Assembly: GCA_037179385.1 (NCBI GenBank)
Contig: CM074179.1
Coordinates: 34,931,905 to 34,995,904, forward strand
Length of the DNA stretch: 64,000 bases
Source of the DNA: Holothuria scabra
Taxonomy: Eukaryota; Echinodermata; Holothuroidea; Aspidochirotida; Holothuriidae
Direction of reading: 5' to 3'
The position numbers and the translations under genes are program-made. Each line of letters starts with the position of its first letter. The stretch's first letter is position 1. This document shows, piece after piece, positions 2,379-64,000 of this stretch. The notes beneath the pieces were generated by a model. That model made no database searches. It was not told the origin of the DNA and saw only the letters and a program-made list of their open reading frames with translations.

Positions 2379-2785
2379 GCTACGACGCTATGAGACATCA
2401 CTTCAACCAACCGTTTAGTACGAGTGGTTCAGACAATGACGGCGGTGATGGTGTTGGGAAATATTGTTATTACTATTTGCATTATTATTGCTATTATGAC
2501 TATTATTACTACCATGGAGGTAACTGTGCTGCTGTACATGGAGGTGCCTGGTGGTACAAACACAGAGGGGAAAGTTCTTCGAGTCCATGTGACCATACCA
2601 CTTATATTGTTAGTAATTGTTATCAGGATAATTGCCGCAACACTGTTTCAGTTTCATACAGCTGCGCGTTTTCAAATTTGAACGGTAAACAAAGTGGACG
2701 TAAAGGACAAACTATTTTTTGGCACGGTCTTTCTGGAAATGTTTGTGGAATCAAATACACAGAAATGAAAGTGCGCCCTCTTTAA
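2379..2785 (+). CDS. Gene A, terminal exon: FReD P subdomain with Tyr-rich insertion
   Basis: The acceptor is ttcaacag at 2371-2378. The phase-1 junction rebuilds Gly (G|GC) and reads on as Tyr-Asp-Ala-Met-Arg-His-His. The exon ends with the FReD signature KYTEMKVRPL and a TAA at 2783-2785. Two insertions set it apart from an ordinary FReD. A Tyr-rich tract containing two Cys lies between the Asp-Asn-Asp calcium-site motif and the Asn-Cys-Ala of the last disulphide. A second stretch of about 35 residues with extra Cys lies between GAWWYK and SNLNG. The tract here is interrupted by Leu, His and Asp, so it is less pure than in gene C. The reading frame is intact. Lectin-like ligand binding is the family expectation, not shown here. 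Confidence 0.88.
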
Positions 2786-17535: not shown

Positions 17536-17928
17536 CTAAAGAGGGCGTACTTTCATTTATGTGTATTTGATCACGCAATCGTTTCCGGAAAGACCGTGCC
17601 AAAATATTGTTTCACCTTTATTGTCATTTCGTTTACCGCAAGGTTCAAATTTGAGTATTCACAGTTGTATGAATGGTACGGCAGTTGTTGCAGTTACTAT
17701 CCTGGCAGCACTTATAACTACATGTTTAATGGTCGCATTGACTCGAATTACCTTCGCCTCTGTGTTTGTACCACCATGCACCTTCATGCACACAAGCACA
17801 GTTAAAACCATAGTAATAATAATAGCAATAATTTTAATAATTAGGACAGTAAATTCCATCACCGCCGTCATTGTCCTCGTCACTCGTGCTAAACGGCTGG
17901 TTGTAGTGATGTCTCATAGCGTTGTAGC
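17536..17928 (-). pseudogene. Copy B: dead orphan terminal FReD exon (Tyr-tract type)
   Basis: This is homologous to the terminal exons of genes A and C from the acceptor (tttcaacag|GCTAC) through NAMRHHYNQPFST, the Asp-rich calcium motif, the Tyr tract, HEGAWWYKHRGE and VRPL. In-frame TAA codons occur at 17836-17834 (inside the Tyr tract), 17728-17726 (after CDH) and where the Glu of TEMK should be. A shift also disrupts the SNLNG region. No matching middle FReD exon exists upstream, although the intron is preserved to its expected edge. The overlapping open frame that reads Ile-rich is the wrong frame of the (TAT)n repeat. Confidence 0.88.
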
Positions 17929-19120
17929 CTGTTGAAAGCTAAGAGTGAATAGATCAATATATATGTGGAGTCTACTTGATAAAGAGTTGACGATTTGGCC
18001 TAAGTTTTCTTGACTAGTTGGATTCAGCACGATCTTCTTTTAAGCTATTCAATGACAACTAATTCAGCAATATTTAAAAATATATTTAAATCAGCGTCCT
18101 ATCAACAACATACTTCACTTCCAGTACAATTGCATTCAATCCATTTCCAATCTGCATGATTTACATATACATATATAAATGTATATTATATAATTTCACT
18201 CTTTGTGTCTCGAATAGAATACACTAATATGCTTCACTGAGGGTTATGTACATTTCGTAACCTTTTCCTATGTTGTATTCGTCGTACATTAAGATGCAAA
18301 ATGTGCCTTACTTTGGGTTTTTTTTTTACATCAATAAATTTTAATGTTACACCGTGTGTTTTTAAATTCTAGTTTTGTGCTTCGCATAACATTTGGCATC
18401 AAGCCGTTAGTTGTTTTACTTTTCAGCATTCAATATTCAATTATGGAAGTATTTTTTTTTTAATTTATGTACACTTGTATGTAAGCGGAAGTTGCACAAC
18501 GAAGATTGGTGTTCTTAGGGAAGACCCACTGTAATGGCGCTTGTTCATGATTTGTGATCATGCATGTATTAAATAGATATCTTTGTGAAGACTATAAGGC
18601 TACAGTAGTAAAGTTTCACTGGACATCAGTACTAAAGGTCTACGAGTTTTACAGGTAGATATTTATCTGCACAACTTCTCATCATAAATAATAATGCGTT
18701 CATTACGATTAAGTAAAATTATTTAACTCAGCACATTCCTTTAAAAACGAACGTATTTATCTTATTATGTGCCAGGCATATCTCAAAAGAGGGGCCCCAT
18801 TCTATGTAGTTACACGACAAATCAGTACACAGTACAAATCGAAACTGAAGATATTGGGGATGAAATTGGTTATATTCTTCCACGGTTTCTATTTCTCAAG
18901 TCACTGAAATATAATTGGCCATTGGGAAACAAGTTCGTTAACTTACCGGCAAAAGTTTCACGAACTAAAGCCAAGGACTACAAAGCAATTATTTTACCAA
19001 GATTGGTTTATTACTCGTAGAATACTTCACATTTCTTTCTCTCTGAGAGCTACCAGACGTGGAATTGTCTAAAGAATATACTAAATTTTCAAAGAGTTAA
19101 TCTGAGTAAACCCGATAAGA
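17929..19120 (-). other. Copy B intron relic, homologous to gene C intron 8
   Basis: Several blocks align with 23090-24520 in the same order: aatcagcgtcctatcaaca, gaagttttgtgcttngnat, the cacaacgaagatnggt-ttcttagggaag block and a 200-bp block ending in ttggtttattac. Homology runs to about 19120, exactly where exon 8 would begin, and then stops. The open frame at 18769-19020 is intronic. Confidence 0.75.
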
Positions 19121-22664: not shown

Positions 22665-23089
22665 TCATGAAAGAGGGCGCACTTTCATTTCCGTGTACTT
22701 GATCCCGCAATCGTTTCCGGAAAGACCGTGCCAAAATATAGTTTGCCCTTTAGTACCACTTCGTTTACCGTTTAAATTTGAGTATGCGCAACTGTATGAA
22801 ATGGTGCGACAGTCAGTGCAATAACTAAAAGTGCTATATCCCTCGCAACATCTATAACTATATGTGTAATGGTCGCATGGACTCGATGAACTTTCGCCTC
22901 TGTGTTTGTACCACCAGGCACCTTCATGTACAGCAGCACAGTCACCTCCATAGTAATAATAATAATAATAATAATAGTAATAATAACAATAATAATAATA
23001 ATAACGGCAGTAAACCCCATTACCACCGTCATTGTCTGTACTACTTGTACTAAACGGTTGGTTGTAGTGATGTCTCATAGCGTCGTAGC
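22665..23089 (-). CDS. Gene C exon 9: FReD-2 P subdomain with polytyrosine tract
   Basis: The exon follows ctcaacag and ends VRPLS plus TGA. Order: YDAMRHHYNQPFST, a TDNDGGNG calcium-type motif, a Tyr tract (5 Tyr, Cys, then 12 Tyr), then GGDCAAVHEGAWWYK. A roughly 40-residue insertion with five extra Cys follows, then SCAYSNLNG, IFWHGLSGNDCG and KYTEMKVRPL. The tract is coded by TAT with a few TAC and one TGT, that is, a nearly pure trinucleotide repeat (about 22952-23012 on the plus strand). The other two frames of the repeat would read poly-Ile or stops and are not the gene. Normal FReDs have only a few residues at both insertion sites. Confidence 0.9.
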
Positions 23090-23160: not shown

Positions 23161-23194
<34 letters not shown>

Positions 23195-26100
23195 GGACAT
23201 ATTTCAGCACAATCTTGTATTTGTCTTTTTAATGTCACCTATATTAAGCAATATTTAAACATATTTTTAAATCAGCGTCCTATCAACAGACGTCATTGCC
23301 ACTCCTGGTTGTCACAGTACTAATTAATGGGAAGAGAAAAGTATGTACCTCGGGAGGGCATGTGATCCCTACACCTGTGTGATGAGTCGGTAGAATCCCA
23401 TTCAAATATCAACTTCCAGGTAAGTCTCATTTAATTTTTGGATTATATAGTTTCACTAGTTGTGTCTAGAATAGGATACCTATTGCTACATTCAGCGTAA
23501 TGTAGATTTTGTTTCCTTTTGATATTGTAATAGTCGCTCCTAAAGATGCAACTTGTTTTGCGAAACATGTCGCAATTTGGAATTTTTTTCATGATTAAAT
23601 ATTGTGTCATTTCGTGTGTTTGTAAATTGAAGTTTTGTGCTTGGTAGACCATTTGACATCAACCCGTCGCTCTAAAGTTGTTTCAACTATCACATTTAAT
23701 TACGGAAGTATTTTGCAATAAATTATGTAGACTTCCGTGTAAGCGGACGTTCCACAACGAAGATAGGTATTCTTAGGGAAGTAACTCTGTAAAGACTCGT
23801 AACCCACTATTTGCCTACAGTAAGTTGTAAAGTTTCACTGGGCATCAAGTTATACGGTGGTCATTAAATAGTAGTACAAAAACGGCGTGGAAGTTATGAC
23901 TCAAGTACTAAAGAACTACTTCGTACAAGATTTAAAAGAAGATATTTGTCTTTAAAATTTCTCATCAAAAATCAAAATGCGCTCATCACGATTTATGACA
24001 ACTCCCTATTTTAGTACATCATTTACACTTAAGTTATTTATACGACAAATCAGTTTAAGGCAAAATTGTAGAAATTAGAGATAAAATTTGGTTATTGCTC
24101 CATGGTTTCTTTGTCTCAAGTCATTGCGATATAATTGACCAGTGGGAAAACAAATTCTTTTATTTATCGTCACAAGTTTTACAAGCTAAAGCCAAGGATT
24201 GAATAGCAATGTTTTACTAAGGTTGGTTTATTACATGAACAATAACATGTACAATATTATTTTAAGAGAGAACTTCAACTGCAATGATATTGCGTTGGAA
24301 AAGCTGATAAAATGTTTTAATCATACCAATTTTATTGTTGCCAAATTCATATGAAAAGAAAATTCCCTGTGTGCCCTTGTTCGTTTACAGTTTGGACTTG
24401 AAAATAGTGAAAAGGCCAGTAAAGTTAGTAATTCATCCACACTGTGAGTAAACCTATATGGAATGATCTAAAGAATGTATTTCTTGAAAGAATCAATTTA
24501 AACGTAATAAGGTTAATTTCCGACTAACCTGCATTTCCACTGTAACTTCCAAGTACAGTCATTCGATACTTGGTTCCTTCATTTCCGATACGAAATCCGT
24601 TGTACACGGCTCTGTAATGCCTGTTACCAGAGTCAATCATATCAATGCGGAGTTGATAGTTTCTCTGGCTGGTAAGGTAATGAATTTTATCATTTCCAAG
24701 CCAAAAGTCTTCATCTAATTCACCAAATCCTTGTTTGTAAGAACTCCAAGAAAGATCAAAGTCTCGGGTGGAATCTGGAATGCGTCTCTGCAAAACCTTC
24801 GCAAAGAAAATAAAATAATCAAGAAAATGGGGAAAACTATTTTCTTATATCTTTTCAATGACAATGACTACACCCAAATTAGCCGTAACAAACCGTGGCG
24901 GGGTATCTAATTTCACGCCTTTTACGTTGCATCAGTTACATGCTCACCGACAGAGTAAGATAAAAGCTGTTACTCAGTATTGACAAAGTTGGGTGCAAAG
25001 TCAAATACCTAGGGATTACCTTTCTTCCTGTAACAAATGTTGTTGAACCACTATTTACACCATCCAAGGCGGAACTGGAAATGAACGTATAGCAATAGGT
25101 GTGTATCTTTTTCACTTAAGTCAAAAGCTTTCGTAGGTTTAAAACAGTGCAATAACAATAAATAATATAACAATAACATAAATCACACTTTAAAGGTCAA
25201 GAGCAGTTCCCCAAACTTATTTTGAAGCAACAGCTGAATCACACAATTTTCTTCCAATTTCTCTTCAAAGTATCTTTCATGATATTTTATAAACTTGAAT
25301 ATTGCATATCCAAGGTTGACCAAGCAGTTATTTCCAGTAAATTCCACATTTGAAGAGAAAATTGTTGTCACATGAATCTCAACAGCCAATCACATTAAAC
25401 AGCATAGTCTACTACACTACTTCAAGTTGGGGTGACTGCTCTAGATTCTAAAATACATGTGTGTAGTATTATAGTAACTTTAATATACACATTGCATACC
25501 GTCCATCGTCCTTCTGATATGTTGCAATAAACCTGAAACTCCTGCCAATTGGATGGTAAGATGTAATACAACCCGCTACCGCTATAACCTTTAGTTGATG
25601 GAACTTCATCACAGTCTCTCGGTCGTCGACATCTCGATCCGTCAACTAAGTAGCCTCTTCTATTGCAGTCACAGTTTTCACCATTACCAGCAAAGCCCGA
25701 ATTACAAGAACAACTCCCTCCACCCGCTGTACTTGTACATCTTGCGTTTTGATCACATGCATAACTAGTACATGACAAACCGTTGCTATTACAAGAACAC
25801 CTCTGTGAACACTGGTTGTTTATGTAGGATTCTCCAACCTGTGATAAATAAAATAACACGAAAATAATTTGACATGGGAATATATATTTTTCCTGAAACG
25901 GTTAAAAGTTTATTCACTGTCAACATTAATCGCAATGCCATTAACTCTGCTCTTAAGGTACCTTTCTTAGTAAATCAAACATGGGTCGATTTTACTGCTC
26001 ATTCCAGGCGCCTCAACCGACTAATACGTTTATATTATACTTACGATATAAAAGCATTAGTCGTTTAAGTAACTTTACGATTCATACATAAAACATTTCT

Positions 26101-29100
26101 CCAATAGTTACATTTTTGTATATGCTAATAATAAGGATGAGTTTTGCGGTGAAGTTTTAAACACCCTGCTACTCAAAGCGAGAAAAGTCAAAATTTACCT
26201 TGCTCAAGAGTAAAAATTGAATGAAACTGCTATTTATCTATTTACTACTTACCAAAATGACTTTGCCAGCTTCGGAAGAGTAGCACGGGCATTCTTCAAG
26301 TGGAACGCAGTGACTTCCTTTTAAAAAGAATCCATTAGGACAAACACATCTACTTGCTTCTTGACATATATTCTGACAGGTAGTTGGAACTCCACAAGTC
26401 ATTTCGCATGAGCAATTTGTAAATATCATGTTCGTAGGACATAGAGGGGTACAACGGTCTCGCCCATCACCGATGAAGCCATTATTACAAGTACAGCGCC
26501 CTCCCTCGCTGGAACTTATACACCTTGCGTTAGGATTACAACTGTAGCTACTACATGTAAAGCCGCTTTCACTACAAGTACATTGCGTTGAACATTGGTC
26601 GTTGACTACGGATCCGCCCATCTATAAAACGAAGGAACGGAGACATTTTTTCAAGTAAAATGAAATGCTATACTTAAAATATGTGAGGTTATTTCTGAAA
26701 TTTGATGGAACGTACCCGAAAGATGTTAGTTTTATTAATATAATCTAAAAAGAAATTACAAGTAGTTAATCTTTATTTTTTACCTTAACATCAAAACATT
26801 GAGGACAGAATGCGGTAAAATTTTATAGGAAACATTAACTTTACTGTTCAGAATTCATAAATGAGCCCCATCAATTTGTATTTCTTTTTGAAGCTTTAAG
26901 TCCACGGTCCTTCAAGGAACTGAGATACTTTTAAAGTGGGATGATTAGAATTGTTTATTTAGCATAAGTAGGAAGATGAAGCAATCAAACACTGCTTAAC
27001 CAGTATTTACGTATTTACCGGAATGACTTTATTAGCCGTTGTATAATAGCACTGACATTCTTCAGGAGTAACACAGTCACTTCCTTTCAAGAAGAAACCA
27101 TCCGGACAGGTACATTTTTCTACTTCCTCGCAGTTATTCTGACAGATAGTTGGAGCTTCACAAGTCCTTTCGCATGTACAGTTTGTGTATATCATGTTGA
27201 TTGGACAAGATACTGGAAATATACCTGAAGGAGACAAAGCACTGACTTTCAATTTTACCATCTCGTCCCTTTTATCGTACCATAGTAATTTCCTCACTGG
27301 ACAAACATTTGCTAGTGCATTAGGCTTAAACGTTTTAAGCACCTTTGTTGGCATCCATTATAACTACTTCACAAGATATTTGTGTGAATAAGCCTTTAAG
27401 AAGCAATAAAAACATACCGGATATTAGTTCAGCTTCTCCCAATGAAGCCAATGAATAGTTTCCCCATTCATCGCTGATCCGGAAGTAACTGTACTTCATA
27501 AATCCTGTTGATCCGTTAGAAATCGTAATATCCATACGAAGCTGGTACCTTTGCTGGTTTGTCAGATAGGAGAGTTTTTCATTTCCGAGGAAAAACTCAC
27601 TACTTAAAAATCCGAAACCTCTCTTGTAGTCAACCCAATTACGTGTAAAAAGAAGTGAACCGTCAAGACGACGCATAAAAACCTGTAGAGAGAAAGAAAA
27701 GCGAACCCAGATATTTTCATACAACAAACGCTCCATTATGGTTACGTTATTCTTGTTGAAAAATCCGTGGGAGGATATAAAAAGACTTTTAGTGGTTATT
27801 TAAATTAGAATACCTAGTGATCATTCAATATAGTTAACTAATCCAGTTACTAAGAGTACCTCCTTCTCGACTTAGAGCATTTCCTAAAATTAAATTACAC
27901 ATGCCTCCACTTTGTACAATTTATTATAACTTATTTTCTTTTAATATGGAGGATAAGTTAGAATATCTGTTTAATTAATATTTTGTCTATGTACCATAAT
28001 TACTACAGTCGTTTAAAATTAAGCGGACATACAGATATGCGATTTGAGAAGAAATCATGTAAACTAATAGTAACCTTAAACCTATTACGGTACCCCTCTA
28101 TAAACGCTGTGGTCAACTATGCACCAACTCAAACTATGGTCAGATTGTTGACCTAAGCTTTGGTCCAAAGTTTCCAATTAATAGTCAGATTTCACCACAA
28201 ATTGGTAACTTTTGACCATAGTTTGGTTCAACAATATATAAATATATCACATCAAATAAAAATTGTTAACTCACTGTCCAACCCCATGGGTCGAAACTGT
28301 TGTCACAGTAAACTTCAAATGGATATGGGAACCCATCTGGTTTTATTACATAGACTCCACTCGAATTTTTCCCCGAACATTGTTCAAGTACTTCCTTGCA
28401 GTCACGTGGGTATGTTGGATGTTGGTAGAAGAAATAGGCTATATCCCGTCACAGAGAAAATAAATAACGTCAGTTTTCCGTTAAATTTTAAACTTTTAAA
28501 CACAAATCAATTCAAATCACGTTTTAAGAAAATCGAATTTGGAGAAAAGGCTATTAGTGAGCTTTTCCATTCCGGCTTTGTAAATATACTTCTGTAAAAA
28601 TACGAGAGTGGCTTCACTTATCGATATCTGTTATGTATGAAATATTTATCTTTTTTCAAATCATTTCAGTCATAACAACTGCAGTTATCCCATTTTAAGT
28701 TGCATACAATACAAAATCACTCGGTAACACAATTATTGTGAATGATTAGGTAAGTTTGTTATAAAAAATTGGTATTATTTTCTAACACTATTATTTTTTT
28801 CTTACGCTGTAAATAATGATTACCCAACCTGGTCAAAAGATTATTCAACCCATCGTTCCATATGCCATCTGACCGGAAGTGGGTAAAAACTGCCCAACTT
28901 AGTTGGTTAAGCGTTTACTCATTAGTTGTGCAAAAGAAATTGTCCAACCATTTCACCCAAATAGTTTTGCCTAACAAATGGCTAAATTTGCACCCAACAC
29001 ATTTGCTCAACGGCTAGACTGTTGAGTGCTTGTTTGAATTTCCATTTAACAGTATAATCAGATATGTAATTTAATATCATTTGGAAAAAACAGAGGTTTA

Positions 29101-50685: not shown

Positions 50686-50890
50686 GATGAAAGAGGGCGC
50701 ACTTTCATTTCTTTTAACTTGATCCCACAATCGTTTCCGGATAGGCCGTGCCAAAATACCGTATGATTTCACCCTTATAACCACTCTGTTCACCATTCAA
50801 ATGTGAAAATGCGCAAGGCTGTATGACTTGGAGCGGCAGTTGCTGCAATTGCTTTCTTCGCAACATTTAAAATTTCTATACCTGTAATAG
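50686..50890 (-). pseudogene. Copy E: 3' remnant of a terminal FReD exon
   Basis: The minus strand from about 50890 matches the second half of the A/B/C terminal exon: TGTTGCGA, TCATACAGC, the SNLNG region, TTTTGGCACGG, CCGGAAACGATTG and AAATGAAAGTGCGCCCTCTT. A one-base insertion before the SNLNG region shifts the frame and exposes a TGA; the terminal stop is lost. The Tyr tract and everything upstream are absent. It is the most decayed copy in the window. Confidence 0.8.
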
Positions 50891-51294
50891 TCGAGCGTCG
50901 ACAGAAATCGATGTATTTTAATTGACGCACATACTTTCGGATGAATTGGGTTAATTTTGTATTAAATTCCTTTCGCAATGCCAGGTTTTTGTTCTCCGGT
51001 CTTTGTGTCTACACAGTGTTCAAATCGAAGACACAAAAACAAAGACACTGCCCGGAGTACGTTTAAACACACTGTGAGCATTTTGAGAAAATTCGTCTCT
51101 TGAAATTGGGCGTCTTGACTTGGCCGAGAGCATTATGACTCGGCAGATTTTTCAACGATGGAAAACCGCAAATAATAAGCTAACCTTAAAATTTCTATCA
51201 GGTGGATGTCCAGTATGTTAACTGCAAAAATACCTTACCGGCTGCTAGATTCGGAAATCACCCTTACTCAAAATTTATCTCTGGCTTATACCTG

Positions 51295-51690
51295 GAAATA
51301 TCTGGCTGTAATTAAGTTTCATATGGCCATATGAAGCCAGGTATAAAACCCTAGATAGGAATCTTGATACATCAAATCAAGTTTTATATGGCCATATCAA
51401 ACAAGATATAACTTTTAGTTGATGAAATGTCTTTCCAGATATGTAAAGAAAGTTTTATATGGCCATATCAAGCCAGATCTAACTTGATGAAATGTCTTTC
51501 CAGATATGTATATCAAGTTATATGTGACCATATCAAGCCAGGTAAAACTTGATGAAAAGCCTTTCCAGATATGTTAAGTAAAGTTTTATAAGGCCGTATC
51601 AAGCCAGATATAACTTGATGAAATGGCAGTCCAGGTATGTTAATAACGTTTTATATGGCCACATCAAGCCAGATATAACTGTTTAAAATA
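51295..51690. repeat. Tandem repeat, six units of 63-71 bp with ATATGGCCATAT palindrome
   Basis: The core (variants of ATATGGCCATAT) starts at 51321, 51386, 51457, 51520, 51588 and 51653. Each later core is followed by CAAGCCAGATATAACTTGAT and GAAATGTCTTTCCAGATATG variants. The 52205-52400 stretch has further atatgg/ccatat palindromes. Confidence 0.82.
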
Positions 51691-60000: not shown

Positions 60001-63000
60001 TGACTGCAAGGAAGTCCTTCATCAATGTTCGGGTAAAAATTCCAGTGGAGTCTATGTAATAAAACCAGATGGGTTCCCATACCCATTTGAAGTTTACTGC
60101 GACAACAGTCTCGACTCTTGGGGTTGGACAGTGAGTTAATTGTTTTCATATGTTGTTTAACAAATTAAAAATGCTTTTCGGGAGGTAGTTTTTGCGAGAT
60201 GGTCTGGTTTCTCTAAAAATCTCATCCTCCTCGCTTAATTGTAAATGATTACAACAATTGTGCTGCAAAGACGACAGTATTTATTATAGATGTTTTGCCG
60301 TTTGCTATGCTTTTTCTGTGTTTCATCCTAGACTTTCATAAGATTCCAGTGCTTAGAGTCACGTTTCTTTTTATTGTAATTTATTTGTTATGTATGTTCA
60401 TATTATCTATGTACAAAGGAATAGCGACAATCATTACCACCAAAGCAAAGTTCTGTGGGAAAAAAGGATAGGCACACTGTTAATTGACTCAAGCTTAGTG
60501 CAAATATACAGTAAAGAGAGGACATGAAGATTACAGAAAAGGTTCTAGTAATAAATTTTCAAAGTTTTTGTGTAGTCTTTACTTATCTCGTAATACTTGT
60601 GTTCTGCAAATGTGCCGATTTTTAAGCATTGTACAACATATTAATACCGAGAGTTAGGTATGACCTTTCGAGCAAAATATTGTTAGCATGTTTCCTTTTT
60701 GTTTTTCGTTTTGTTTCAAAATAGAACTTGCGTTTTCGATCTTTGTAGAAATAAGGGTTGGTAGGAAAGCCTGTTAAAATGTAATGAAGAAAACTCGGTG
60801 AAATTTTATAAGGAACAACATGGACAAATTATCGGTTGCTTGAGAGTGTTTACGATCCATTGACAAAGGAGCTACTCGTAGGAGTTGTCTAAATATTATC
60901 AATCGTCATAATGTATTTAGTAATTTGAATCATTTACATAACTATTTGTTTACCCTGCCTATATAAGGGTTTTGCAAAAAAAAAAGTAACATAATCGCTA
61001 TTGTTCACTGAATGTATAAAAATTCCTACTTTGTTTTTCCTACAGGTTTTTATGCGTCGTCTTGACGGTTCACTTCTTTTTACACGTAACTGGATCAATT
61101 ACAAGGAGGGTTTTGGATTTTTAAGTAGTGAGTTTTTTCTTGGTAATGAAAAACTTGCCTATCTGACAAACCAACAAAGGTACCAGCTTCGTATAGATAT
61201 TACGATTTCTAACGGATCAACAGGATTTCTGAAGTACAGTTACTTCCGAATCAGCGATGAATGGGGAAACTATTCATTGGCTTCATTGGGGGAAGCAGAA
61301 ATAACATCTGGTATGTTTTTTATTATATCTCTAAGTCTAATTCATATAAATATCTTGCGAGGTAGTTAGAATGGTTTCTGAAAAAGTTACGGCAAATAAT
61401 TAGCCTTAATCCACAGGGAACGTTTATTCAATTGGAAAATAACTCTAGTTAGATACAAGGACAGAGCTGTTAAAATTGAAAATCAGTGCTTTGTCTCATT
61501 CAGATATAATTCCAGTATCTTGTCCAAGCAACATGATATACACAAACTGTTCATGCGAAAAGACTTGTGAAGCTCCAACGAGCTGTCAGAATAATTGTCA
61601 GGAAGAAGAAAGATGCACCTGTCCCGATGGTTTCGTTTTGAAAGGAAGTGATTGCGTTACTCATGAAGAATGTCAATGCTATCATACAGCCGCTAACAAA
61701 GTCATTCCGGTAAATACGTTACTACTGATTAAACATTATTTAGCCATTTAGCTAGTTTATCTTTCTACTTATGCATAAGTATGTAGATTTTTAATCATCC
61801 GGCATTTTAACGTTAACAGCAATGAAATGAAAATGGTTTTTAATTTTGTTAAGGACTAAATCTTTAAAAAGAAATCAAAATTGACGTGATATCATTCATA
61901 AAATCTCAGAAAATGTTTCCATTAAAGTTCTTGGCCTATTTTGTCTTACATGGACATTTATTATAGAGATAAAATTGGAAGCTGAATTCTTTGTTAGATG
62001 AGAATGGTTGTAAATTACTTCACTCGGATGAACATCTTTCGAGTACATTCCATCAAATTTCAGAAACAACTTCACCTGATTTACGTATCACATTTATCCT
62101 GTACATATTTCTCCGTCGTTCCTGCCTTTTATAGAAGAGCGGATCCGTCGTTAACGACCAATGTTCAACGCAATGCACTTGTAGTGAAAGTGGCTTGACA
62201 TGTAGTAGTTACAGCTGTCATGCTGACGCAAGGTGTATAAGTTCCAGCGAGGGAGGGCGCTGTGTTTGTAATACTGGCTTCATTGGTGATGGGAGAGACT
62301 GAAGGCCTTTATGTCCTACCAACATGATATATACAAATTGCACATGTGAAAGGACTTGTGAAGCTCCATCGAACTGTCAGAATAATTGTCAAGAAACAAG
62401 TAGATGTGTCTGTCCTAATGGGTTCTTTTTGAGAGGGAGTGACTGCGTTCATCTTGAAGAATGTCCTTGTTACTCTTCCGCAGCTGGCGAAGTTATTCTG
62501 GTAAATAGTAATTACCGAAATTACAAGCTATTTATTTTTAACGCTTGAGTAAGGTTTTGTAGGTCTTCACTTTTCATTCACCTTGTCATACAAAGCAGAA
62601 TGTTTAAAAATTCACCCCAAAACTCATGTTTTTATAGGTACACACAAAAATATAACTACTGGAGTAATGTTTTGTGTGTCATCGTAACAATCACTTCAGC
62701 CCGCTAATAGCTTTGTACCTTAAGCATCATGTAAGAGCCATCGAAGCGTCTGGCGTTAGCAGTATGTCCAGTCGACTATTGCTTGATTTACTACACACCT
62801 TAAGGGCAGAGTTACTGACATAATAATTAAAATAGACACACACACAAAAATACTAATTTAAAGTTTCAGGAAGAGAATACCGTCCGTATGCCAAAGGATC
62901 TCCTTGTTGTTTTATTTACCGTAGGTTGGAGAATCATACATAAACAGCCAGTGTTCACAGAGGTGTTCTTGTAGTAGTAACGGTCTCACTTGCGCTAATT

Positions 63001-64000
63001 ACGCATGTGATCAAAACGCAAGATGTACAAGTACAGTCGACGGAGGGCGCTGTTCTTGCAATACAAGCTTTGTTGGTAATGGAGAAACCTGTGGCTGTAA
63101 TCGAGGCTACTTAGTTGACGGATCAAGATGTCGACGGCCAATGGACTGTGATGAAGTTCCATCAACTGAAGGATATAGCGGTAGCGGGTTGTACTACATC
63201 TTACCTTCCAATTGGCAAGAGTTTCGCGTTTATTGCAACATATCAGAAGGACGATGGACGGTATGCAATGTATATATTTAAGTTAACCACGGTACTACGA
63301 CCTGTATTTTAGTGAAAACTGAAGTTTACTTCAATTGTTCGGGGTGTTTTAGAGCTGCTAAAATTTTGATTTAAGGTGACAGGGTACACGAACGTATCGC
63401 TTTCATGTATGCATCTTTAGTTCTGTTGTCCATTTGAACAAATATTAGCTCAAAATCACATATTTAAGGGAATTTTAAGTGAATGGAATTAGTCCTACGT
63501 GGGCCTTTTCATGATAAACAGTTCTTTGGACTTGGGATTCAATTTCTCAGTTAATAATGTATGAACGTTTTCCTTTTCCTCTATCATTGAACATATATGA
63601 AACACATCCGTACAAACAACAAGCCTCTGGCTGTATGGTGGTTCGTCATGACGACTTTGGGGTAAGTCATGGCGTTTGAAAGAAGAGAACAGTTTTTGCC
63701 TATTTTTTAATGCATTTCTTTACGAAGGTTTTGCAGAGACGTATCCCAGATTCTACCCAAAACTTCTATCTTTCTTGGAGTTCTTACAAACGCGGATTTG
63801 GGGAATTGGATGAAGATTTTTGGCTTGGAAATGATAAAATTCACCACCTCACCAGTCAAAGAAACTATCAACTCCGTATTGATATGATTGACTCTGGCAA
63901 CAGGCATTACAGAGCCGTGTACAACGGATTTCGTATCGGCAATGAAGACAACAAGTATCGAATGACTGTACTTGGAAGTTACAGTGGAAATGCAGGTTAG
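53962..64000 (+). CDS. Gene D: double-FReD / TIL / EGF-like gene, exon 9 off the window, in-frame TGA in exon 6
   Basis: Exons 1-8 (75, 40, 164, 265, 206, 366, 336 and 268 nt) copy the gene C design with the same phases, on the opposite strand. The terminal P-subdomain exon should lie just past base 64000. The frame is open from the signal peptide to codon 305. A TGA at 62300-62302 then interrupts exon 6, at or next to a conserved Cys of the EGF-like module; one codon is also missing there. All other exons and splice sites look intact, so this is either a recent pseudogene, a truncated secreted protein (signal peptide, FReD-1, TIL-1, part EGF), or an assembly error. Confidence 0.8.
54037..58891 (+). 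other. Gene D intron 1 (4.9 kb)
   Basis: No exon was recognised. A poly-G run lies near 56488. 57965-58005 matches gene C intron 1 near 30955-31000 in reverse, and a tRNA-like SINE lies at 58180-58330. Confidence 0.6.
58180..58330 (+). repeat. tRNA-derived SINE-like repeat
   Basis: Contains a good B-box-like string GGTTCAAATCCCAG (about 58214-58227), then GGGTCATACCAAAGACACTTA, shortened here to the shared core ATACCAAAGAC found in the 30.7- and 34.5-kb copies. No tRNA cloverleaf is claimed. Confidence 0.5.
58892..58931 (+). CDS. Gene D exon 2: 13-residue linker
   Basis: EGNVGRTGLTTGK, 40 nt, phase 0 to 1, acceptor ctcccaaaatgcag, donor gtaagt. Same length as in gene C. Confidence 0.72.
59967..60130 (+). 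CDS. Gene D exon 3: FReD-1 A subdomain
   Basis: 164 nt, acceptor gacatag, donor gtgagt. Encodes YPRDCKEVLHQC, SGVYVIKPDGFPYPFEVYC, then WGWT. Almost the same protein as gene C exon 3. Confidence 0.9.
61046..61310 (+). CDS. Gene D exon 4: FReD-1 B subdomain
   Basis: 265 nt, acceptor cctacag, donor gtatgt in phase 1. Encodes VFMRRLDGSLLFTRNW through ISDEWGNYSLASLGEAE. As in gene C, no P-subdomain exon follows; the next intron is 193 bp and leads to TIL. Confidence 0.9.
61504..61709 (+). CDS. Gene D exon 5: TIL domain 1
   Basis: 206 nt, acceptor cattcag, donor gtaaat. Encodes CPSNMIYTNCSCEKTCEAP, then CTCPDGFVLKGSDC and EECQC. Cys spacing is as in gene C. Confidence 0.9.
62135..62500 (+). CDS. 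Gene D exon 6: TILa/EGF-like plus TIL 2, with TGA at codon 56
   Basis: 366 nt between ttttatag and gtaaat, frame set by both splice phases. SGSVVNDQCSTQCTC and the EGF-like module are clear up to GDGRD. There, TGA (62300-62302) and AGG replace the Arg-Cys-Thr codons of gene C. After it TIL-2 (CPTNMIYTNCTCERTC ... CVCPNGFFLRGSDC) is fully open. A single nonsense codon in an otherwise well-kept exon suggests a young lesion. Confidence 0.85.
62925..63260 (+). CDS. Gene D exon 7: TILa/EGF-like 2 plus FReD-2 A subdomain
   Basis: 336 nt, acceptor taccgtag, donor gtatgc. VGESYINSQCSQRCSC, then an EGF-like module, CNRGYLVDGSRC, MDCDEVPST, SGLYYILPSN and FRVYCNIS. One codon shorter than gene C; frame open. 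Confidence 0.9.
63728..63995 (+). CDS. Gene D exon 8: FReD-2 B subdomain
   Basis: 268 nt, acceptor cgaag, donor gttag at the window edge, phase 1. VLQRRIPDSTQNFYLSWSSY through VLGSYSGNAG. Very close to gene A exon at 65-332, including the intron bases before the acceptor. Confidence 0.92.

Follow-up and report, generated by a model that had tools for sequence, protein, structure and literature searches.

A polytyrosine tract as the probable crown of a hypervariable, cysteine-framed loop in sea cucumber fibrinogen-related domains

Why should a run of tyrosines lie in the last exon of a fibrinogen-type gene, and is it an accident of a microsatellite or part of a working surface? The run in question, Y5-C-Y12 (17 Tyr and 1 Cys; 18 codons), is encoded by (TAT/TAC)n at positions 22950-23003 on the minus strand of the window, by which we mean the whole 64,000-nucleotide stretch of Holothuria scabra DNA that was analysed. 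The initial annotation gave the coordinates, residue counts and flanking motifs of the tract correctly, as the minus-strand reading of 22665-23089 confirms: exon E3 of this gene, here called gene C, reads DND (23036-23028), GGNGVYCR, Y5-C-Y12 (23003-22950) and then GGDCAAVHEGAWWYK, with an additional Tyr and Cys (those of VYC) directly before the tract. TRF reports a tandem array at 22950-23004 (period 3, 88% matches), and the Tyr codons of loop 1, that of VYC included, are 15 TAT and 3 TAC. There is also a 29-base T run (an A run on the sense strand) at 23163-23191, approximately 70 bases before the acceptor of E3. The features of the exon are as follows:

22665-23089, minus strand: last exon of gene C (E3), which encodes the P subdomain of FReD-2 and contains the stop (spliced model)
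23028-23036, minus strand: DND, the calcium-site motif
22941-23027, minus strand: loop 1, GGNGVYCRYYYYYCYYYYYYYYYYYYGGD, 29 residues that separate DND from the first S1 half-cystine
22950-23003, minus strand: polytyrosine tract, Y5-C-Y12, 18 codons (sequence, TRF)
22938-22940, minus strand: Cys aligned with FIBCD1 Cys401 (putative equivalence, from motif)
22791-22904, minus strand: second insert, 38 residues, from WWYK to the next half-cystine
22797-22868, minus strand: loop 2, the hypervariable core of the second insert
22788-22790, minus strand: Cys aligned with FIBCD1 Cys414 (putative equivalence, from motif)

The six 3′ exons of gene C, spanning 27682 to the stop at 22665, splice through GT-AG borders into one 623-aa frame. 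This open frame bears out the earlier claim that the reading frame is held on both sides of the tract, and it rules out a chance run in a non-coding stretch. Upstream of E3, the exons are:

24529-24796, minus strand: exon E2, FReD-2
25500-25838, minus strand: exon E1, TILa/EGF and start of FReD-2
26253-26621, minus strand: EGF/TIL exon
27019-27224, minus strand: TIL-like exon
27418-27682, minus strand: middle of FReD-1, joined in the model straight to the TIL exon
about 28275-28403, minus strand: start of FReD-1, outside the joined model, 5′ border approximate (tblastn)

Pfam finds two Fibrinogen_C stretches together with TIL, TILa and EGF domains in the spliced 623-aa model, which scores 203.3 bits against Fibrinogen_C (PF00147; curated cut-off 22); E3 alone gives no Fibrinogen_C match at E 0.001. 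Judged by these profile matches, the gene C product is a Fibrinogen_C protein, and it is probably secreted; a signal-peptide exon of gene C was not found. FReD-1 lacks a P-subdomain exon and is followed by a TIL exon both in gene C (27418-28403, minus strand) and in gene D (60002-61297, plus strand), so the modelled protein contains one complete fibrinogen domain, FReD-2, and one partial domain.

FReD-2 shares with the FReDs of ficolins, FIBCD1 and tachylectin-5A its Fibrinogen_C sequence, the DND calcium motif and the S1 Cys pair, but differs from them in spacing. Relative to tenascin-R, DND-(4)-NC becomes DND, 28 residues and DC, and WWYK-N-C (1 residue) becomes WWYK, 38 residues and C-AYSNLNG. 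In FIBCD1 (PMC3908420), the calcium ligands are Asp393, Asp395 and the carbonyl groups of Ser397 and Asn399, S1 is shaped by a cis peptide between Asn413 and Cys414, and the disulfide Cys401-Cys414 joins the calcium site to this acetyl site S1. By alignment, both inserts appear to sit at the disulfide equivalent to this link, which supports the earlier statement that the tract adjoins the ligand pocket of known FReDs. By motif, loop 1 would replace the carbonyl-ligand stretch and loop 2 the cis-peptide stretch, and because both are replaced, the S1 pocket is likely rebuilt rather than merely decorated. The Asp pair of the calcium site is retained, with DND present in 29 of 30 copies (DND being itself one of the anchors by which copies were placed, which failed for L053); protein P0001 has DNE at this position. 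The residue before the second Cys is Ser in gene C rather than the Asn of the FIBCD1 cis peptide, and this Ser-Cys, following a 38-residue insert, stands where the known S1 site has Asn/Arg-Cys. On this sequence, acetyl binding of the canonical type should not be assumed for gene C.

Gene C is not alone in carrying the loop. The genome (1.19 Gb, 31 contigs) contains at least 153 Fibrinogen_C matches (150 of 2372 candidates scored), and E3 as query finds at least 133 matches (150 of 777 candidates scored). The close copies of E3 form an array on contig C1 at 34.70-35.48 Mb, and more distant copies lie on C13 and C5. Within and just beyond the window, the other members are:

2379-2785, plus strand: gene A E3, a paralogous exon, loop 1 = GGDGVGKYCYYYLHYYCYYDYYYYHGGN
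17539-17938, minus strand: psB, an E3 copy interrupted by a frameshift and several stops, one of them in loop 1
60002-63997, plus strand: gene D, exons up to E2
L009 3039-3449, past the window end: gene D E3, loop 1 = GGDGVRKYYYYYYYYCYYYYYYCYYYYGGN / KYYYYYYYYCYYYYYYCYYYYGGN

No upstream exons for psB matched between psB and gene C. The loops of gene A and gene D differ from that of gene C, and further versions of loop 1 are found in C3 (RCYYYYYYYCYYYYYYGGD), L043 (DCLYYYYYNYCHHWYNHSLYGGN) and P1 (RCPYCYYYYYYCYYYYYYYCYSHYYYYNCGYYCYYDFGGN). Self-comparison of 278 kb reveals many duplications of 80-98% identity (matches longer than 1.5 kb), including a tandem duplication of about 98% identity and more than 50 kb (C1 34953765-35007242 to 35026282-35078570). 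This last block (C1 34953765-35078570) could be a false haplotype duplication, an explanation that is unlikely for the more diverged ones. The gene pairs C/C2 and D/D2 are duplicates at this 98% level. Other repeats and fragments in the region include a 65-base tandem repeat (4.6 copies, window 51374-51680) and degenerate, mostly frame-split E3-like fragments at window 50688-50901 (minus strand) and at window-relative 72.9k, 77.0k, 122k, 144k, -10.8k and -47k.

A Tyr-rich, Cys-punctuated loop 1 occurs in all 22 counted C1 copies, is 23-47 residues long and has 21 distinct sequences; loop 2 of the same copies is 19-27 residues long with 19 distinct sequences, and the stretch between the two loops has a single length in all 22. 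These counts leave out psB and the six C13/C5 copies, and keep three copies with a stop in loop 1 (L035, L036 and L041) and one with a frameshift upstream of it (L039). The longest Tyr run per copy ranges from 3 to 12, that of gene C being the longest, and Tyr makes up 48% of loop 1 and Cys 8%, compared with 6% and 5% of the framework. The repeat described in the initial annotation is real, but it does not stand as an insertion peculiar to gene C: among a family of Tyr/Cys loops, it is the one closest to a pure homopolymer. From the alignment and this copy-to-copy pattern, we favour as probable the reading that the tract is the crown of a Cys-pinned, Tyr-rich hypervariable recognition loop on FReD-2, with presumed expression and a putative function. 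What is observed in its favour is that every one of the 22 counted copies has an insert at this position, framed by cysteines and glycines, written in TAT-repeat codons and changing by whole codons in length and sequence from copy to copy, and that a second fast-changing, Cys-rich loop precedes the paired half-cystine. Since loop 1 is variable in nearly every copy and lies beside the ligand site of related proteins, the family may build many binding surfaces.

The principal alternative is that the loop is an unconstrained, exposed insert in which a TAT repeat has grown by slippage with no recognition role, the repeat being tolerated because the frame is kept. We consider this neutral account unlikely, and the evidence bearing on it is mixed. 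The TAT:TAC ratio of Tyr codons is 276:41 in loop 1, whereas the E3 framework, whose sites are few and copied, gives 7:92 (Fisher P 2e-50). In gene C it is 15:3 in loop 1 versus 14:22 elsewhere in the partial CDS (by subtraction), and this excess of TAT codons speaks for the neutral account. Gene C and its near copy L031, with eight framework differences, have loop 1 lengths of 29 and 24 residues, i.e. five codons apart; the whole-codon length change that had been anticipated is therefore seen between gene copies, and together with the TAT excess it fits slippage. In each of the 29 copies that have both anchors (30 tested, L053 having no anchor; L046, whose 5′ part is missing, and L054-L058 fall outside this set), the length from DND to WW is divisible by three, a frame keeping that is expected anyway from period-3 slippage. 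In-frame stops inside loop 1 occur in three of the 22 copies (L035, L036 and L041) and also in psB. Those three are the only in-frame stops among the codons sampled from the 22 (P 0.012 for all of them lying in loop 1), again as a neutral insert would allow. Against it stands the distribution of the repeat. All ten perfect AAT-class runs of at least five units in the 278,095 bp around the tract lie inside copies of E3, which total 3,753 bp (1.35% of this sequence), although the ten runs do not represent ten independent events, since E3 copies have a common origin and those of D and D2 do not differ at all in this part. With no such run outside E3 copies, a common genomic microsatellite is unsupported within these 278 kb. 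The framing cysteines are also mostly retained, and Tyr-rich, Cys-spaced loops recur in other species and at a second position (see below).

The cysteines of the loops provide a further observation against the neutral account. The number of Cys in the sampled exon codons is even in 19 of the 22 copies, and in 16 of the 18 that have neither stop nor frameshift; the two odd copies among these 18 are D and D2, whose loops are identical. In three copies a gain in loop 1 is offset elsewhere: C2 and L035, each with an additional loop-1 Cys, lack one in loop 2, and L037 pairs its additional loop-1 Cys with a further one in the framework. This parity, which was spotted post hoc, suggests that cysteines may pair between loops. 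Both S1 half-cystines are invariant across the 22 rows of alignment A3, and they would form the predicted disulfide.

The rate of change in loop 2 can be read in favour of either account. Over 11 disjoint nearest pairs, nonsynonymous change per site is about fourfold higher in loop 2 (0.150) than in the framework (0.035), with approximately 86 nonsynonymous and 22 synonymous differences in loop 2 versus 74 and 78 in the framework (pN/pS 0.90 versus 0.23; Fisher P 4e-7); loop 1 was excluded from this comparison, as it permits no codon-by-codon alignment. Omitting the pair that contains the frameshifted L039 gives 73/17 and 48/57 with P again 4e-7, and a six-copy set (15 non-independent pairs) gives pN/pS of 0.92 for loop 2 and 0.12 for the framework. 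Loop 2 therefore shows freedom or diversification. Strong positive selection on it is not shown by a pN/pS of 0.90, which is not above 1; relaxed constraint fits equally, and a value near 1 is what a neutral insert would give. Divergence specific to the loops was ruled out for the pair C and C2, in which the 3′ flank has diverged as much as the exon.

More distant relatives bear on the order in which the loop arose. L047-L049 (on C13) and protein P0001 carry loops of the Cys...Cys form in which Tyr is sparse or dispersed, loop 1 of L050 (on C5) holds only one Cys, which counts against a Cys-pinned loop, and the protein database holds P0002, with insert 2 but no insert 1, and P0003, with neither. 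Since Cys-bounded loops occur in these distant copies without long Tyr runs, and P0002 and P0003 show the other states, the Cys-bounded insert is probably older, and the TAT repeats would have grown on it afterwards. L051 and L052 (C13, 2.18 and 2.26 Mb) are a very similar pair whose differences lie mainly within a Cys/Tyr-rich loop 1 of almost 80 residues. Inserts with Cys are also present where loop 2 lies in four other FReD exons of the genome (L055-L058), and insert 2 therefore extends beyond the array.

Ten named proteins of other species match, four from H. leucospilota (42-61% identity) and six from A. japonicus (35-41%). The initial annotation had proposed searching related species for FReDs with Tyr runs, and such runs are indeed present, in loop 1 of P0004 and in loop 2 of P0009-P0013. 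The C-terminal region of the gene C protein is 61% identical to H. leucospilota P0004, whose loop 1 has the only long Tyr run at that position among the ten matches (CRYYYYYYYCYYFYYSLGNC / DCRYYYYYYYCYYFYYSLGNC); loop 1 of P0006 from the same species is short (YYYYSCSSYGHC / NNYYYYSCSSYGHC), and loop 1 is absent from H. leucospilota P0007 and from all six A. japonicus matches, a scarcity that counts against the recognition reading. Five of these six (P0009-P0013) have Tyr runs of the type RYYYYYYGSYCRRDYYCRYYPDGSYCRYCG in loop 2, P0012 and P0013 not being independent because they have the loop-2 part in common, and the sixth, P0008, has scattered Tyr only at loop 2. Tyr runs thus occur across species at both positions around one predicted disulfide, and the A. 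japonicus sequences favour the idea that Tyr may be wanted near the S1 site. A one-off insertion is ruled out by the tandem array and the other species.

The H. leucospilota proteins also bear on whether the tract reaches the protein. An alternative 3′ splice site, TATGGAG|GTGACTG, lies right after the tract, and its AG|G is in phase with the previous exon; the H. leucospilota model P0005, which reads SGNAG|GNCASMHEGAWWY and is missing everything between the beginning of E3 and the last residue of loop 1, has the form that its use would produce. The missing stretch may represent an alternative splice or an annotation artefact of the gene model. Splicing out the tract would take the DND calcium motif with it, all eight copies compared have the AACAG|G acceptor ahead of E3, and P0004 and P0006 retain the stretch; we therefore regard splicing out as very improbable.

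The domain order of gene C (partial FReD, TIL/EGF, full FReD) and the tandem clustering are shared with the holothurian FREP/fibrinogen-like protein A family. In A. japonicus, expansion of the FREP family and a 21-gene tandem cluster have already been reported (PMC5638244), and FREPs are reported to be up-regulated there at the mRNA and protein levels in visceral regeneration; the Tyr/Cys loops and their variability between copies were not found in the available portion of that report. Literature searches for polytyrosine in fibrinogen-related proteins or microsatellites and for tyrosine-rich fibrinogen-like insertions found no paper, those for polytyrosine homopolymers gave polymer and synthetic chemistry among the matches listed, and those for hypervariable sea cucumber FREPs returned none on Tyr/Cys loops, as judged by title. 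A different use for the loops, in place of specific recognition, would be cross-linking or adhesion, with dityrosine or DOPA serving clotting, body-wall or wound repair. Tyr richness itself and the fibrinogen-like domain agree with such a role, as does the up-regulation of A. japonicus FREPs, which may extend to these members (PMC5638244). Cross-linking requires neither diversity from copy to copy nor framing cysteines, however, and seems to us improbable.

A FREP in the strict sense, as in Biomphalaria, combines an immunoglobulin domain with a FReD. No immunoglobulin domain was found in the 623-aa partial model (5′ end incomplete), P0004, P0006 or P0009, and on the sequence of the part seen, the gene C product would not be a FREP in this sense. 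Like gene C, the Biomphalaria FREPs are multigene FReD proteins with variable copies (PMC12074976), but the variability of the gene C family lies in two FReD loops. By analogy, the nearest functional parallel of these loops may be bovine antibodies, whose scaffold is unrelated to the FReD: both have a long loop, changing cysteines, and the Tyr codon TAT near the Cys codon TGT. In bovine ultralong CDR H3, the codons TAT, GGT and AGT are one base from TGT (PMC7366855). The gene C loops, for their part, are not known to undergo recombination or somatic mutation.

Under the recognition reading, each gene copy would display a disulfide-tied, Tyr-rich loop over a rebuilt S1 face of FReD-2, with loops 1 and 2 placed over the pocket and possibly cross-tied by disulfides, and the resulting Tyr-rich contact surfaces would recognize different ligands in different copies. 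Tyr could contact many ligands, Cys changes would alter loop shape and TAT slippage would alter length. Diversity would come from gene duplication, from gain and loss of TAT codons through slippage, and from single-base changes that can convert TAT to codons for Cys, His, Asn, Asp, Phe or Ser. More tentatively, we entertain the possibility that the TAT codon microsatellite, held in frame between cysteines, is itself a generator of diversity for Tyr/Cys loops that bind over the FReD pocket. Such loops would vary from one gene copy to another, probably among individuals and possibly even among the cells of one animal, and would have been reached separately in loop 1 (H. scabra and H. leucospilota) and loop 2 (Apostichopus). 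If true, this generator would parallel the Tyr-rich, Cys-rich loops of antibodies.

In invertebrate FReD proteins, which are suspected immune receptors, the place where specificity could vary can seldom be seen this clearly. In this family, variation falls in two defined loops, one at each end of a single predicted disulfide, and the TAT repeats would constitute a mutational engine that predicts which residues appear in them. Two questions thereby become testable: whether receptors in nature rely on the chemistry familiar from antibodies, rich in Tyr and varied through disulfides, and whether a microsatellite in coding sequence can be retained for the useful variation that it supplies.
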